A stretch of 64,000 nt of DNA, taken from Croceicoccus pelagius. Lineage in GTDB: Bacteria > Pseudomonadota > Alphaproteobacteria > Sphingomonadales > Sphingomonadaceae. The notes below the pieces were generated by a model. It was not told the origin of the DNA and ran no database searches. It saw nothing but the letters and a program-made list of their open reading frames with translations. Position numbers and translations under genes: made by a program. The DNA lies in the NCBI RefSeq assembly GCF_001661915.1, contig NZ_LYWY01000040.1, positions 124,001 to 188,000 on the forward strand, in the 5' to 3' direction. This document shows, piece after piece, positions 30,625 through 48,071 of this stretch. How positions within the stretch are numbered: position 1 is the stretch's first letter; each line of letters starts with the position of its first letter.

Positions 30625-30731
30625 TGGCGCCAACTGTCTGCTGACCATCCGATTGCGAAAATTCGACCAGAAGCGCCAACAGCGACCTGGGCCACATTAA
30701 AGGTCAGCCACTTTTATTGGGTGGAAATGGA

Positions 30732-31256
30732 ATGAGCGCGGATTTTCTGATTGACAATTTGCGGGTAACGGACCTGCCGTCTGTGCTTTCGATCCAGTCC
30801 GAGAGTTATCCGGGATACCTTGTCGAGAGTCGGCAGGTTTTTCTCAGCCGTCTTTCGTTGAAAAACTCCTGCTGTCTGGCAGCAAGGGAAGGCGAGTTAT
30901 TGCTTGGCTACATGATAGCCCATGGCTGGCAGGCAGATGATCCCCCTCCTTTGGGAATTGTGGTCGAGATGGCCGAGCAAAGCGATGTGCTGTTCATCCA
31001 TGACCTTGCTGTCTCAAACTCTGGGCGAGGCAGGGGTATCGGCAAAAAGCTTGTAGAGCACGCGTTCGATTGCGCGCGCAGCAAGGGTATGACGGTCGCT
31101 CAACTAGTCGCCGTCGAGGGTGCGACTCGCTATTGGCGCGGCCTCGGCTTCACAGAGGCACAAACTGCAGGCAATTTACGCGCGAAAGTCCGGGAGTACG
31201 GTGCAGATGCCCGATGGATGTCGCGCCTAATCCCAGCCGGTAGCACCAACAGCTAG
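30732..31256 (+). CDS. GNAT-family N-acetyltransferase (174 aa)
   Basis: Single-domain acetyltransferase. The acetyl-CoA-binding motif is FIHDLAVSNSGRGRGIGKKL (R/Q-x-x-G-x-G/A), with the preceding strand LLLGYMIAH and the C-terminal ATRYWRGLGFTEAQT. The sequence is clearly more AT-rich than its neighbours and uses codons such as TTA and TTG, so recent acquisition is possible. I start at the ATG at 30732 with GGGTGG upstream; an ATG five codons earlier is the alternative. The acceptor is unknown. It precedes a putative lasso-like precursor by 324 bases on the same strand, and acetylated lasso peptides (albusnodin type) exist, so a tailoring role is conceivable but unproven. Confidence 0.85.
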   Translation: MSADFLIDNLRVTDLPSVLSIQSESYPGYLVESRQVFLSRLSLKNSCCLAAREGELLLGYMIAHGWQADDPPPLGIVVEMAEQSDVLFIHDLAVSNSGRGRGIGKKLVEHAFDCARSKGMTVAQLVAVEGATRYWRGLGFTEAQTAGNLRAKVREYGADARWMSRLIPAGSTNS

Positions 31257-31580
31257 AAAGGTCAGGTCAGGTCCGCCTCCCGCCCCATAACAGGCAGCAT
31301 TCAGCAACGCGAATTCAGCTCTCCTACACGCCCTGATGCCGCCACGATGCGCGCCGTTCTTTGCCATCGTCGGTCGAAGGCAACCTGTCATCCTGACCGG
31401 TCGCGCCGAACACCAGCATTTCCGGCGGTTTCACGCTGAGACGCAGGGTTACAGGGTGTCATCTTTGTCACCCATGCCCGTTGCCTCGCGATCATTAGAG
31501 ACGTTTCAGCTTTGCTCACCCCTCGCAAAGAGGTATCGTTGGCCTAGCCCCTTCTGTGTAACCGGATGGAATTGCAGCAA
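31257..31580 (+). other. Gene-free leader region before the peptide gene
   Basis: No convincing gene is seen in these 324 bases. There are two inverted repeats: GGGTGTC/GTCACCC near 31457 (one mismatch) and CTTTGC-N9-GCAAAG at 31510-31530. A possible promoter (TTGCTC, 16 bases, TATCGT) overlaps the second repeat, which could therefore act as an operator for the peptide gene. Confidence 0.4.
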
Positions 31581-31721
31581 ATGAACGATACAGGTTCTTC
31601 GGCAGAAACGCGGACCCGCAAGTGGGTGCGGCCGAAGCTCAATCACGTGGGCACGCTGCGCGACGTGGGGTCTATCGTGAAACGACCCGGATTCGACACC
31701 CGGAACAATCACGGATCGTAA
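31581..31721 (+). CDS. Putative lasso-like RiPP precursor peptide (46 aa)
   Basis: A short gene immediately before an asparagine-synthetase-like cyclase. The leader resembles RRE-recognised lasso leaders, YxxPxLxxxG: here W15-V-R-P18-K-L20-N-H-V-G24, followed by TLRDVG. The C-terminal part is G30-S-I-V-K-R-P-G-F-D39-T-R-N-N-H-G-S46. If the core begins at S31, Asp39 is at position 9, the acceptor position of a 9-membered macrolactam ring. The usual Thr at leader position -2 is absent, so cleavage and ring size are uncertain. The ribosome site is weak (GCAGCAA). Sequence composition is Arg/Lys/Asn-rich, unlike an ordinary protein start. It could also be a non-lasso modified peptide or a decaying relic. 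Confidence 0.55.
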   Translation: MNDTGSSAETRTRKWVRPKLNHVGTLRDVGSIVKRPGFDTRNNHGS

Positions 31722-31727
31722 CGACGC

Positions 31728-31740
31728 GCCCGTGACGGGC
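31728..31740 (+). promoter_or_regulatory. Small hairpin between precursor and cyclase genes
   Basis: GCCCG-TGA-CGGGC lies in the 28-base gap. Proteobacterial lasso clusters often have such an intergenic hairpin, which keeps precursor expression above that of the enzymes. Here it is short and could also be chance. Confidence 0.35.
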
Positions 31741-31749
31741 CTTGCCTGA

Positions 31750-33645
31750 ATGATCGCGCTGCACCTTCGCTGGGGCGATGCCCCGCCGCCTCGCGACCGT
31801 TTCTCCCAGGCTCTATCATCAGCGCGCCATACGCTCGCCCGATCGGTGACGATCGGCAACGCCGTTCTTGCAATCTCGACGCTGGGCGACACACCGGCGG
31901 CGAGCGCCGTGAAGCTGCGTGATGGAAGCGTCCTGCTGTTCGACGGGCACCTCGACGACCGGGCGGCGTTGGCCCGTTCGCTCGGCGTCCATGCGGCGGA
32001 CGATGCGACGCTCTATGGCGAGGCGTATCTCAAGCATCTGGACGAAGTCGACGCCCGTATCTGCGGCCAGTACGCAGCGCTTATCGTGGCGCCATCGGGC
32101 CAGATCGTGAGGCTGGCCAGAAGCCCGCTTCGCGCACCTCCGCTGCATTATTGGCAAAGCGATGACGAACTGATCGTCGGCTCGGCACCGCGCCTGCTTT
32201 TCGCCACGGGCCGGGTGCCGCGCGTGCTGGACGACCAGAAGATCGCCGACAGCCTGGTCCTCAACTACAACGAGGAACGGCGCAGCTGGTTCGCCGGCAT
32301 CCGGCGCGTACCGATCGGCACGATCTGCCATTTCTCTCGCGGGTGGGAGCAAAGCCGCCGCTTCCACGATCTTGCCAGCCTTCCCCCGACGCTACTTGGA
32401 TCGACCGGGGAATACGTCGGACAGGGACGGGCCATGCTGGAAGACGCGGTCAGATCCTCGCTGGGCGGTTTTGCAAGGCCAGCGATCAGCCTGTCGGGAG
32501 GGCTCGATTCGCAGGCTGTCGCCGCCTTCACGGCCGAAGCACTTCCCGTGGGAGGGCAGATAAAGGGCTTCACGAGCATCCCCGACAGCCCTGTTTCATC
32601 GGACGCTCTCACCAACGAACTGCCCTATGCGAAGGCACTTGGCCGAATGTATCCGCAACTGGACGTCGAGGGCGTCCTGTCGGGAGAGCTCTGGTTCGAT
32701 TACCGGCTGGACGAAATCTTCGAATTTGCCGGCGTCGTGCCGCGCAATACCGCCAACCTGCACTGGAACCACCGCATCTGGGAAAAGGCCAGCACCGAGG
32801 GGCACGACGTGATCTTCACGGGAAGCGCGGGTAACTTGGGCTTCAGCCTCGACGGTCTCTGGGGCTTCGGCGAATGGGTGCGGACTGGCCAATGGGGCCG
32901 CTTGCTGCGCGAGACGAGGCTCGCCAAGGCGCCCGGACAGACTCTCCTGCGCGCGCTCTATGCTCGAGTCGTCGCGCCGCGCCTGCCGGAACCGGCGTGG
33001 TCCGCCATGCAGAAGCTGGCGGGGCGCCAGCACGCCGATCCTTTCGCCACGTGGTCGCCGATCGATCCCAAGTGGGCTAAGGAGATGGACGTGGCTGACC
33101 GCGCCGAGGCGATGGGGCACGACATGCTCTTCCGCTTCCCCTCAGAGGTTTCGGCCTACCGCCGCGATTTCGGCGGGGGCGAAGCTGGCGACATCGACCA
33201 GGCGTTCCTGCAGATCCACGGTATGCCCGAACGCGATCCGCTGGCCTACCGCCCCCTTGTAGAGTTCTGCCACTCGATCCCGGTGGAACAGTTTATCGAA
33301 GGCGGCGAAACGAGGCTGCTCGCCCGCCGCATTTTGACAGGTAAAGTGCCTGAGGAAGTCCGCACCGAGCAACGCCGCGGCGTGCAGGCCAGCGACTGGC
33401 GGCAGCGGCTTGCGCGCGCGAAGGCGGCCCTCTCCCGCGAACTCGCCGATCTTCAGCGGGACGAGGTGATCACAGGACGCATCGCCATCGCGGACCTGAA
33501 GCGCACGCTCGATAGCTGGGACGACAGCGCGCCTGCCGACCCCGTGGTCGACAGCCGCCTGTCACTCGCCATGCCGCGAGCGATCGCCACCGCCCGCTTC
33601 ATCCGGTGGGCCGGGCGCAGCGAAGCACCCGGGCCCGCGGACTGA
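31750..33645 (+). CDS. Asparagine-synthetase-like enzyme, putative lasso cyclase (631 aa)
   Basis: The protein has the two-part asparagine synthetase B layout. The N-terminal glutaminase-like region (1-200) shows DGSVLLFDGHLDDRAALARS and ARICGQYAALI, but no catalytic Cys at residue 2 (it begins MIALHLRW). It therefore cannot use glutamine in the normal way, which is typical of lasso cyclases (McjC type). The ATP-pyrophosphatase domain follows, with SGGLDS at 249-254 (PP-loop), and continues to about residue 560. Such enzymes adenylate an Asp/Glu side chain to form an isopeptide ring. It follows the short peptide gene by 28 bases. No protease/RRE (B), ABC exporter (D) or isopeptidase gene lies nearby. 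It may instead be an orphan asparagine synthetase relative with another substrate. Confidence 0.7.
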   Translation: MIALHLRWGDAPPPRDRFSQALSSARHTLARSVTIGNAVLAISTLGDTPAASAVKLRDGSVLLFDGHLDDRAALARSLGVHAADDATLYGEAYLKHLDEVDARICGQYAALIVAPSGQIVRLARSPLRAPPLHYWQSDDELIVGSAPRLLFATGRVPRVLDDQKIADSLVLNYNEERRSWFAGIRRVPIGTICHFSRGWEQSRRFHDLASLPPTLLGSTGEYVGQGRAMLEDAVRSSLGGFARPAISLSGGLDSQAVAAFTAEALPVGGQIKGFTSIPDSPVSSDALTNELPYAKALGRMYPQLDVEGVLSGELWFDYRLDEIFEFAGVVPRNTANLHWNHRIWEKASTEGHDVIFTGSAGNLGFSLDGLWGFGEWVRTGQWGRLLRETRLAKAPGQTLLRALYARVVAPRLPEPAWSAMQKLAGRQHADPFATWSPIDPKWAKEMDVADRAEAMGHDMLFRFPSEVSAYRRDFGGGEAGDIDQAFLQIHGMPERDPLAYRPLVEFCHSIPVEQFIEGGETRLLARRILTGKVPEEVRTEQRRGVQASDWRQRLARAKAALSRELADLQRDEVITGRIAIADLKRTLDSWDDSAPADPVVDSRLSLAMPRAIATARFIRWAGRSEAPGPAD

Positions 33646-33654
33646 CGCCACCGA

Positions 33655-35835
33655 TCAGCGGTGCTGCGCGCGCCAGCGGGTGACGATGCGCTCGACAGCT
33701 TCTTCCTCGCCGCCGGTTTCGTTCCACAGCTCGCTGAAGCTCGGATCTTCGGATGCCGGGCGCTTGCGTTCTTCAAGGTCGTCGAAGGTCACGCGCATCG
33801 GGATCGCCGTACCCTCGCCGCAGACGATGCATTCGCGGTTGCGAAGCGCCGGGATCGTGTCGAGGAATCCGCGCGCGCCTTCGGGCATGGCAGCCTTCAC
33901 GAAGTCCTGGTCGCGTTCGTTGTTGAGACGCATCGAAAGGATCGTGCCGCACTGGGAAAGCACGCCTTCGGCCAGGTCCGACGGACGCTGCGTGATGAGG
34001 CCCAGCGAGATACCGTACTTACGGCCTTCCTTGGCAATACGCGAAAGGATGCGGCCCACGCTCGACCTGTCGGCGTTCTTCTCGTTCGGCACGTAACGGT
34101 GCGCTTCTTCGCAGACCAGCAGGATCGGGCGCGTCTTTTCGTCACGGCCCCAGATCGCGAAGTCGAACACCATGCGCGACAGCAGAGCGACCACGGTGCT
34201 GGTGATTTCAGACGGCACGCCCGACACGTCGACGATCGAGATCGGCGAACCGTTGCCCGGCAGGCGGAACAGGCGCTGGATGACTTCCTGCATCGTGTCG
34301 GCGACCAGCATGCCGGAGAACATGAACTGGTAGCGCGGGTCGGCCTTGATCTCGTCGATCTTGGTCTTGACGCGAAGGAACGGCGCGGTGTTCGTCGCCT
34401 TGTCTAGCTTGCCCATCTCGTCCTGGATCGCACCGGTCAGGTCCGACAACAGATAGGGTATGGGCGAATCGACGGTGAGGCGGCTCATGCCTTCGGCCAT
34501 GCGGTTCTTCGAACGCGCCTTCAGCAGACACTTCGACAGGATGTCCATGTCGGCCTGGCGGTCGGTGCCTTCGTTCGTGATGAAGACTTCGCAGTGTTCC
34601 TCGAAGTTCATCAGCCAGTACGGCACCTTGAGGTTGCCGACGTCGAAAATCTGGCCCGTTCCGCGGAAGGCGGCCGAATATTCGCCGTGAGGGTCGACCA
34701 TCAGGATGTGACCCTCAGGCGCGGCTTCGCAGATGCGGTGCAGGATCAGCGCGGCGCTGGTCGACTTACCGGTACCGGTCGAACCCAGCAACGCGAAGTG
34801 CTTGCCCAGCATGGCATCGATGTAGAGTCCGGCGCGGATTTCCTTGGTCGGGAAGACCTTGCCGATCTGGATGTTGGAACGCCCGTCAGAGGCATAGACC
34901 TGCGCGAGGTCGGCGTTGGTCGCGGCAAATACTTCGGCGCCCGGCACCGGGTAGTGCGTGATACCGCGCGTGAAGTTGCGGATGCGGCCGGTCAGCTTCT
35001 CTTCCGAACCTTCGCCGAGAAAGTCGATTTCCGCGATGATCTCGCCGGTTGCGCGGTCCAGCGTCTGGGTGCGGACCGACGCGAGCAGCCAGACTTTGCC
35101 GACGCGGACCTTGATCTGCGAACCCACAAGGCCGGCAAGCTGCACCGACGGATCGGCATCCTGCTGACATTCGACAAGGCGCTGTGCGCTGAGGCGGGCC
35201 TGCGACGAAGAACCGGCGATCTGCAGCACTTCACCGATGGCCTTGTGCGATTCGGAACGGCGGCTTTCGGGCTCTTCCTCGTCGTGCGAGACGGCTTGCT
35301 CTTCAACCTCGGGCTCAGGTTCCGGAACGCGGGCGACAGGCGGAGATACGGGCGCTGCAGGCGGGTCAATCGGACGTCCGTCCATGGTGACATCGCGCGC
35401 AGGTACATCGCTGATGGGTGCGAACTCACTCGGCGGCGCGGGCGGCGCGACGGGGCGATCCACGGGCGCTTCGGCCCCGACCGGATCTGGCGCCGCTTCG
35501 GCAGCAGGTGCGGGGGTTTGCGGCGGGGCAGGCGGCGAGACGGGGCGACCGCCGCCGAAACCGGACGGCGGTGCGCCTGCGCCAAAGCCCGAAGGCGGCG
35601 CGCCTGCACCGAAATTATTGGCGCCAAACCCGCTCGGCGGTGCGGGCGGTTCGATGCTGGGCGGCGGCATGTCGGGCGGCGATGCGAAGCGGGCCTCGCC
35701 AACGGGCTTAGGAGCCTGTGCCTGCTGGGCGGCGTCCTTCTCGTCACTGATCGAACGACGTTCGCCGGGTCCTACCCGTTCGAACGGCTTGCGAAAGGGG
35801 TGACCACCCGGAAACCTGCTGCCCATATCGTTCAT
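33655..35835 (-). CDS. HerA-type (DUF87) ATP-binding protein with disordered N-terminus (726 aa)
   Basis: Residues 1-210 are low-complexity and Pro/Gly/Ala-rich, with repeats of the form APPSGFGAG. The HerA-like barrel follows, then a P-loop ATPase with Walker A LGSTGTGKSTSAALI (about residue 350), Walker B LLVCEEAHRYVPNE and the SLGLITQRPSDLAEGVLSQC sensor region. HerA-type enzymes are hexameric DNA translocases, and in archaea partner with NurA. No NurA-like nuclease or SIR2 partner is adjacent, so this is not an evident defence pair. A GAGG site lies before the ATG. Its 3' end faces the cyclase gene. Confidence 0.87.
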   Translation of the reverse strand: MNDMGSRFPGGHPFRKPFERVGPGERRSISDEKDAAQQAQAPKPVGEARFASPPDMPPPSIEPPAPPSGFGANNFGAGAPPSGFGAGAPPSGFGGGRPVSPPAPPQTPAPAAEAAPDPVGAEAPVDRPVAPPAPPSEFAPISDVPARDVTMDGRPIDPPAAPVSPPVARVPEPEPEVEEQAVSHDEEEPESRRSESHKAIGEVLQIAGSSSQARLSAQRLVECQQDADPSVQLAGLVGSQIKVRVGKVWLLASVRTQTLDRATGEIIAEIDFLGEGSEEKLTGRIRNFTRGITHYPVPGAEVFAATNADLAQVYASDGRSNIQIGKVFPTKEIRAGLYIDAMLGKHFALLGSTGTGKSTSAALILHRICEAAPEGHILMVDPHGEYSAAFRGTGQIFDVGNLKVPYWLMNFEEHCEVFITNEGTDRQADMDILSKCLLKARSKNRMAEGMSRLTVDSPIPYLLSDLTGAIQDEMGKLDKATNTAPFLRVKTKIDEIKADPRYQFMFSGMLVADTMQEVIQRLFRLPGNGSPISIVDVSGVPSEITSTVVALLSRMVFDFAIWGRDEKTRPILLVCEEAHRYVPNEKNADRSSVGRILSRIAKEGRKYGISLGLITQRPSDLAEGVLSQCGTILSMRLNNERDQDFVKAAMPEGARGFLDTIPALRNRECIVCGEGTAIPMRVTFDDLEERKRPASEDPSFSELWNETGGEEEAVERIVTRWRAQHR

Positions 35836-47625: not shown

Positions 47626-48071
47626 CGCACCGAGGGGCCTGTAAGCCGGGTTCTGTGACGTGGACGGTATGCCATTACGGCACCGTATCCCCGCCGGCAG
47701 CCATTCCTCTCGGCCCTGCGTTGCCGCAGGGCTCCAGCAGCCAACCCGGACGATCACGGGGCGAAACACCCCTGCCCTGCACCTTACGGTCGGGCGCGCC
47801 GTCCCTATTCGGCCTTGCTCCGGGTGGGGTTTGCCATGCAGCTTCCGTTGCCGGTCGCCCGGTGCGCTTTTACCGCACCCTTTCACCCTTGCCTGTGACC
47901 GCCATGCTCCGAAGAGATGGGGTCCATCGGCGGTCTGCTCTCTGTGGCACTGTCCCTTGACGGTCCGAAAACCGCCCGGCGGGCGTTACCCGCCACCCTT
48001 GTTTCGTGGAGCCCGGACTTTCCTCGGCACCCCCGTGGGAGGATGACGCGGCTGCCCGGCCCCCCGGTGCG
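47626..48071 (-). ncRNA. rnpB: RNase P RNA, class A
   Basis: The catalytic RNA that trims tRNA 5' ends. Universally conserved segments are visible on the minus strand: GAGGAAAGTCCGGGCTCC near the 5' side (P4 region), ACAGAGAGCAGACCGCC, GGTAAGGGTGAAA-like sequence, and ACAGAACCCGGCTTACAGGC near the 3' end. The ends are set by a perfect P1 helix, CGCACCG at the 5' end pairing with CGGTGCG at the 3' end. About 446 bases, normal for class A. It lies between a beta-helix gene and an amidase. Confidence 0.95.

Follow-up and report, generated by a model that had tools for sequence, protein, structure and literature searches.

The window, that is, the whole stretch of 64,000 nucleotides analysed (C34:124001-188000 of a 3.30 Mb Croceicoccus genome), contains a two-gene locus encoding a small precursor peptide (A) and a lasso-type cyclase (C), which probably functions as a satellite lasso locus, with the missing steps supplied in trans by a complete lasso-type cluster of the same contig, the hub. 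The locus is a new arrangement of known parts, and no publication on satellite loci was found among the matches listed, subscription papers being mostly outside the search. The precursor gene (31581-31721, + strand) encodes 46 amino acids and is followed, after a spacer of 28 bases (31722-31749), by the cyclase gene (31750-33645, + strand), which encodes a 631-amino-acid protein with an asparagine-synthetase fold and without the glutaminase cysteine. The PP-loop SGGLDS is at cyclase residues 249-254 (32494-32511, + strand), and the N-terminus is M-I-A, with no Cys at position 2; the AsnB of this genome starts MCGIAG. The open reading frames confirm the layout of the preliminary description: a 46-codon gene, 28 bases, and an SGGLDS enzyme lacking Cys2. 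An alternative in-frame ATG, 15 bases upstream of the precursor start, would lead to a 51-amino-acid form, and the 46-amino-acid start is favoured because 13 residues separate the start from the Trp in C. gelatinilyticus 1NDH52 (G178) and 14 do so here. The precursor shows a leader (M1-G30) and a predicted core (S31-S46; 31671-31718, + strand). The leader contains the recognition motif W15-x-x-P-x-L...G24 (31623-31652, + strand), of the YxxPxL type with Trp for Tyr and present as W15-V-R-P-K-L-N-H-V-G24, just as first described, and V29 is at position -2. No NCBIfam or Pfam model matched the satellite precursor.

The surroundings of the pair seem unremarkable. Six proteins encoded near it were scanned: radical SAM, GNAT, HerA-type, Alph_Pro_TM, TauE and MlaE proteins. 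The radical-SAM protein, named by eye, is presumably QueE, and a long neighbouring ORF, also named by eye, is taken to encode a valyl-tRNA synthetase. Genes for the RRE protein (B1) and the leader peptidase (B2) are absent beside A and C, and the only PF05402 and PF13471 matches of the genome are in the hub. Searches of the window by tblastn with the K, B2 and N proteins of the hub gave no match, and hub D gave only a 30% match to the ATPase next to MlaE. A complete cluster overlooked by ORF calling was rejected on these window searches (K, B2, N and D) and on a whole-genome search for B1. Elsewhere in the window, positions 47626-48067 (- strand) encode a bacterial RNase P RNA of class A (Rfam RF00010, 258 bits).

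The satellite cyclase scores 102.8 bits against the NCBIfam lasso cyclase model NF033535, far under the curated cut-off of 525, and 71.1 bits against the asparagine synthase model TIGR01536 (cut-off 267); the AsnB of the genome, encoded elsewhere, scores 411 bits. The AlphaFold2 model of the cyclase shows a mean pLDDT of 88.6, and the solved folds nearest to it are TsnB9, beta-lactam synthetase, carbapenam synthetase and asparagine synthetase, with no solved lasso cyclase structure among the matches listed. Plasmid relatives amount to 26 records, each with less than 60% identity. An identity as asparagine synthetase was rejected on the lack of Cys2, the weak family score, the tree position and the presence of AsnB elsewhere in the genome. 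The enzyme shows neither the Cys2 nor the full-length AsnB match of glutamine-dependent asparagine synthetases, and the grouping with true asparagine synthetases that the preliminary description had named as evidence against a lasso reading does not appear in the tree, where one AsnB is the outgroup. The features of a PP-loop lasso cyclase homologous to asparagine synthetase are all present: the SGGLDS motif, the asparagine-synthetase fold, the absence of Cys2 and a position among cyclases of lasso-type clusters.

A window-type enzyme was found in three of the 14 Croceicoccus genomes: the window genome, C. gelatinilyticus 1NDH52 (cyclase 70% identical to the window enzyme) and C. ponticola GM-16 (G221; 53-55% identical). 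Both relatives retain a small gene immediately 5' of the cyclase gene, ...EWSRPELKVVGTLKDVGAIVRQPGFDTKNNHGS and ...AWTVPALKTVGTIRDVRAVPANPGSDGQGNQGS, an association beyond chance; a loss of the 46-amino-acid gene in relatives that keep the enzyme, named at the outset as evidence against the reading, is thus not observed. Similarity between the satellite precursors spans from the Trp to the C-terminus: the leader WxxPxLxxVGT[LI]xDV is kept in the three species, the core end PGFDT[RK]NNHGS is common to two of them and the third keeps Asp9 and the final GS, and the C-terminal Ser is present in all three. When the window ORFs of at least 130 amino acids were compared (E 1e-15) with the 15-16 kb flanking the pairs of G178 and G221, only the cyclase and its internal frames gave matches, so the precursor and the cyclase look like the whole unit. 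Between the window and G178, the NG86 method gives dN 0.215 and dS 1.64 for the cyclase (dN/dS about 0.13), and dN 0.414 and dS 2.10 for the precursor, a rough estimate from 45 codons, with dS values near saturation. A precursor profile shows 15 matches in 12 of the 14 Croceicoccus genomes (two in each satellite-bearing genome, one in each of nine others and none in two). These correspond to one per cyclase locus, save in G303, whose cyclase is broken and where a precursor was not found; nearly all of them came from the alignment behind the profile itself, and only the absence of extra matches is independent.

The segment bearing A and C has about 2.19 kb (31473-33661), and 47 bases replace it at the same site in G298 (L174), one of five genomes examined. 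An intergenic block (31322-31478) is also found at the pair-less site, whole in G178 (L171) and as 31340-31472 in G298, with no match in L172, L173 and L175. The window site of G178 contains about 1.5 kb of other sequence, and the QueE-like and HerA genes of G119, G221 and G301 lie 1.5 to 3.3 kb apart, with no match to the pair in between. No repeats flanking the inserted segment were found. The slot between the QueE-like and HerA genes (window 30627-33654; L171-L175) is variable in Croceicoccus: here it contains a GNAT gene and the A-C pair, in G298 almost nothing beyond the conserved block, and in G178, G119, G221 and G301 other sequence.

The hub is a complete lasso-type cluster (C34:295822-302420) which begins about 138 kb past the window pair and shows the gene order K-B1-B2-A-C-D-N: an HprK-like kinase, a PqqD-type RRE protein, a transglutaminase-like leader peptidase, a 44-amino-acid precursor, a cyclase (C34:297658-299520) 33% identical to the satellite cyclase, an ABC exporter and a nucleotidyltransferase. 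The NCBIfam lasso B2 model gives 72.6 bits for hub B2 (cut-off 33) and the PqqD model 60.7 bits for hub B1 (cut-off 23.4), whereas the kinase is a weak HprK-like match, under the family cut-offs. Each of the three satellite-bearing genomes contains one PF05402 match (B1) and one PF13471 match (B2), located in the hub each time, in searches that may miss diverged RREs or peptidases. The absence of a B protein noted in the preliminary description therefore holds for the locus and not for the genome, which has B1, B2 and an exporter in the hub about 138 kb away, and the trans-acting proteases suggested there gain support from the gene content of the three genomes. An RRE protein and a leader peptidase are thus encoded in each of the three cells, through the hub. 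The satellite and hub leaders, WVRPKLNHVGTLRDV and WVKPELKFVGTLRDV, are identical in 11 of 15 positions. Leader likeness is no proof of hub use, since L075, a cluster of the Asp clade, also has a GT..DV leader, and a leader common to satellite and hub alone was rejected. Of the eight Croceicoccus genomes whose hub belongs to the Gln8 clade (described below), three contain satellites, and none of the six without such a hub does, a weak association statistically. Twenty genomes, picked for having no B2 beside the cyclase (G135 has one about 6 kb away) and therefore not a survey of split clusters, all contain a B2 above the cut-off, a single one in 17. Among 15 B2 regions fetched, nine (L148, L150-L154 and L156-L158) have no B1 or cyclase match and represent split lasso clusters, the B1-A-C loci of their genomes being located elsewhere, five contain a cyclase and B1, and one contains B1 and K. 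From this gene distribution, remote action of B2 does not seem exceptional in the family.

In an alignment of 15 chosen precursors, the Trp, Pro, Leu and Val(-2) are invariant. Lasso precursors usually have Thr at -2. The YxxPxL leader motif is described in the available text of Duan et al., 2023 (PMC10368454), where Ile or Val at -2 is reported for Sphingomonadales lasso precursors; the missing Thr(-2), listed earlier as a departure from lasso precursors, is therefore not one. L071 has a Thr in the same column as Val(-2), which supports the register of the alignment. This register places the predicted cut after G30 and leads to a ring of nine residues, S31...D39. The codon of Asp39 (31695-31697, + strand), core position 9 and predicted ring acceptor, is at the same place in the three satellite precursors, and L075 (Sphingomonas sp. 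R647), an Asp-clade cluster with its own K and B1 and no B2 match within its 16 kb, shows SGGAQGGPD in the same register. The core S31-S46 and the nine-residue ring closed at Asp39, as first proposed, are consistent with this Asp in all three satellites and with the S1...D9 of L075. The precursors of the three species thus show an RRE-type leader (W15xxP18xL20, V29 at -2) and a short core, with an Asp in the 7-9 range (D9 in three of three) if the cut is after residue 30.

In the proposed working of the satellite, hub B1 would bind the WxxPxL leader and hub B2 would cut the satellite precursor after G30. The satellite cyclase would then adenylate Asp39 and join it to the amine of S31, which would close a macrolactam ring of nine residues and leave a tail of seven that is probably threaded. 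The C-terminal Ser may be a substrate of the hub kinase, and the product may leave the cell through the hub exporter. Among paeninodin-type traits, the C-terminal Ser is present in the three satellite precursors, and a kinase-like gene is found only in the hub, under the family cut-offs. The reading of the pair as lasso-type precursor and cyclase is supported, at the level of sequence, by the precursor conservation and by the clade of lasso-type-cluster cyclases to which the enzyme belongs. The latter does not fit the new stripped-down RiPP class that had also been suggested.

Three other explanations were weighed. The pair might be the remnant of a once complete Asp-type cluster, decaying and without product: no B1, B2, K, D or N is at the locus, whereas other Asp-clade loci show B1 in 14 of 17 and B2 in 12 of 17 (short or cut contigs are among the three lacking B1), and the pair is present in only three of 14 Croceicoccus genomes. 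This is improbable, since the frames, the PP-loop and the loop residues are intact in three species, the cyclase dN is far below its dS, with the ratio given above, and the two genes stay paired in three different places; the decaying cluster of the preliminary description is therefore not supported. It is also unlikely, if slightly less so, that the pair uses another, unrecognised protease or keeps its leader and carries out a modification other than lasso formation. The lack of B2 beside the pair would fit this, and asparagine-synthetase-like RiPP enzymes can amidate or nitrilate C-termini, according to the available text of PMC13060819. Against it, no glutamine-derived ammonia is expected of an enzyme without Cys2, the leader combines the RRE motif with the distance to V(-2) seen in the hub, and most other members of the clade are located with B1 and B2.

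The least probable of these explanations, and a very doubtful one, is that the satellite cyclase acts on the hub precursor, or on both precursors, with the 46-amino-acid peptide as a decoy, a competitor or a regulator of hub B1. A shared leader would permit competition for B1, but conservation extends to the last residues of the core, for which a decoy would have no need. The functional satellite served by the hub is the reading preferred here.

The satellite cyclase is not a recent copy of the hub cyclase, since a tree of 82 enzymes, with the AsnB of the genome as root, places the two in different clades. L089 and L090, named by eye and presumably a PurF-like and a GlmS-like protein, were left out of this tree as outgroups, and four fragments (two of L056 and two of L057) were left out for length. 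The three satellite cyclases are a clade of their own (support 1.0) inside an Asp group (0.916; 20 distinct members), where their placement has a support of only 0.11; the 10 precursors read in this group all have Asp at position 8 or 9. The hub cyclase belongs to a separate clade (0.999), and the node joining both groups shows only 0.60. A different, Asp8-type cluster is present in other Croceicoccus species (L048, L049, L050 and L056, of G290, G258, G300 and G302, respectively), with the leader W[TS]EPKLE.LDVDLS.V and the core GNN..xDGS, and no Gln8-clade hub was found in these four genomes.

The hub clade, in which core position 8 is mostly Gln, is the most unusual observation of this work and more surprising than the satellite locus. 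Its 35 cyclases gave 33 precursors, found with a profile built from 22 of them; L098, where a precursor was not found, and L125, which has Gln at 9, were omitted, and one of the two precursors of L109 was counted. Gln occupies position 8 in 28 of them, Glu in two, and Asp, Ser and Pro in one each, the last with Gln at 9. Positions 7-9 contain neither Asp nor Glu in 19 of the 33, and in 17 these residues are absent from the whole core; L118, one core of the latter kind, has B1 and B2 beside it. Ser is the last residue in 32 precursors and Thr in one, Val or Ile is at -2 in all 33, and Trp replaces Tyr in all 33, a biased count because the search profile was built from Trp-bearing examples. The loci of this set, mostly but not all with Gln8, are L003, L044, L046, L051-L055, L058, L099-L111, L118, L119, L124, L126-L130 and L133-L135. 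L109 (4700-5130) shows tandem Gln8-type precursors, GKPVPFRQ... and GKPVPVLQ..., before one cyclase.

Eight cyclase columns show one conserved residue in the Asp clade and another in the Gln8 clade (297, 358, 393, 407, 515, 529, 537 and 546), of which 358, 537 and 546 are discussed here. The Asp clade has G358, V537 and Q546 in 95, 100 and 100% of 21 sequences, and the Gln8 clade mostly has Ala, Gln and His at the same positions (91, 85 and 88% of 33); the cyclase loop there mostly reads GxH instead of GxQ. In the satellite cyclase, the loop V537-W550 (33358-33399, + strand) contains the V537 and Q546 invariant in the 21 Asp-clade sequences. Position 358 aligns with GEGSDE of the genome's AsnB, and 537-546 spans the place of the AsnB catalytic lysine. 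A simple residue switch is opposed by the distribution, which is mainly one deep split and not repeated events; by L058 and L102, Glu8 members that retain Gln537 and His546; by L051 and L101, which have Gln8 with Trp and Pro at 546; and by L055 (Asp8), with Ile537 and Pro546. The hub core of the window genome, GSANPADQ, has Asp7 besides Gln8, so an ordinary seven-residue ring is possible there.

It can be suggested, tentatively and with less confidence than the satellite reading, that a shared K/B1/B2/D set serves two precursors with almost identical leaders and that the anciently diverged cyclases make different bonds: an Asp9 lactam in the satellite and a bond between the N-terminal amine and Gln8 in the hub clade. 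Conceivably, the latter would be a macro-amidine, formed by adenylation of the carboxamide and loss of water (-18.011 Da), or an amide, if ammonia is released instead (-17.027 Da). Activation of a Gln side chain is conceivable because PesC adenylates a carboxamide, as stated in the available text of PMC13060819. No publication with Gln as lasso ring acceptor was found among the matches listed, subscription papers being again mostly outside the search. If Gln8 is the ring acceptor, the asparagine-synthetase family gains a further bond-forming RiPP reaction, and, should processing in trans be real, a single protease set could widen its range of products by acquiring further pairs of precursor and cyclase. 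Genome-mining tools seek lasso clusters with an adjacent peptidase and with Asp or Glu at positions 7-9. Satellites, with no adjacent peptidase, and most hub-clade loci, with no such Asp or Glu, could escape them.

Among known systems, the bsf lasso cluster of Bradymonas sediminis (Duan et al., 2023; PMC10368454), in the text available, has the gene set of the hub (A, B1, B2, C, D, K and N) and a YxxPxL leader like that of the satellite, where Trp replaces Tyr; its leader removal needs both B1 and B2. All bsf genes are in one cluster and the ring acceptor is Asp8, whereas the satellite has A and C alone and Asp9, and the rest would be borrowed; the bsf kinase acts on Ser3 and not on a C-terminal Ser. 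Phosphorylation of the C-terminal Ser is known for paeninodin, according to the available text of PMC13352647. The cluster annotated as paeninodin-type on the Priestia plasmid pB2.3 (L095) shows a PP-loop and G, V and Q at the three compared positions, like the satellite, and shares the separate B1 and B2; it is, however, complete, and its cyclase branches outside the alphaproteobacterial clades described here. The PesC nitrile synthetase belongs to the same superfamily as the window enzyme and also acts on peptides; as far as the available text of PMC13060819 describes it, PesC transfers glutamine-derived ammonia onto the C-terminus, whereas the window enzyme has no glutaminase Cys.
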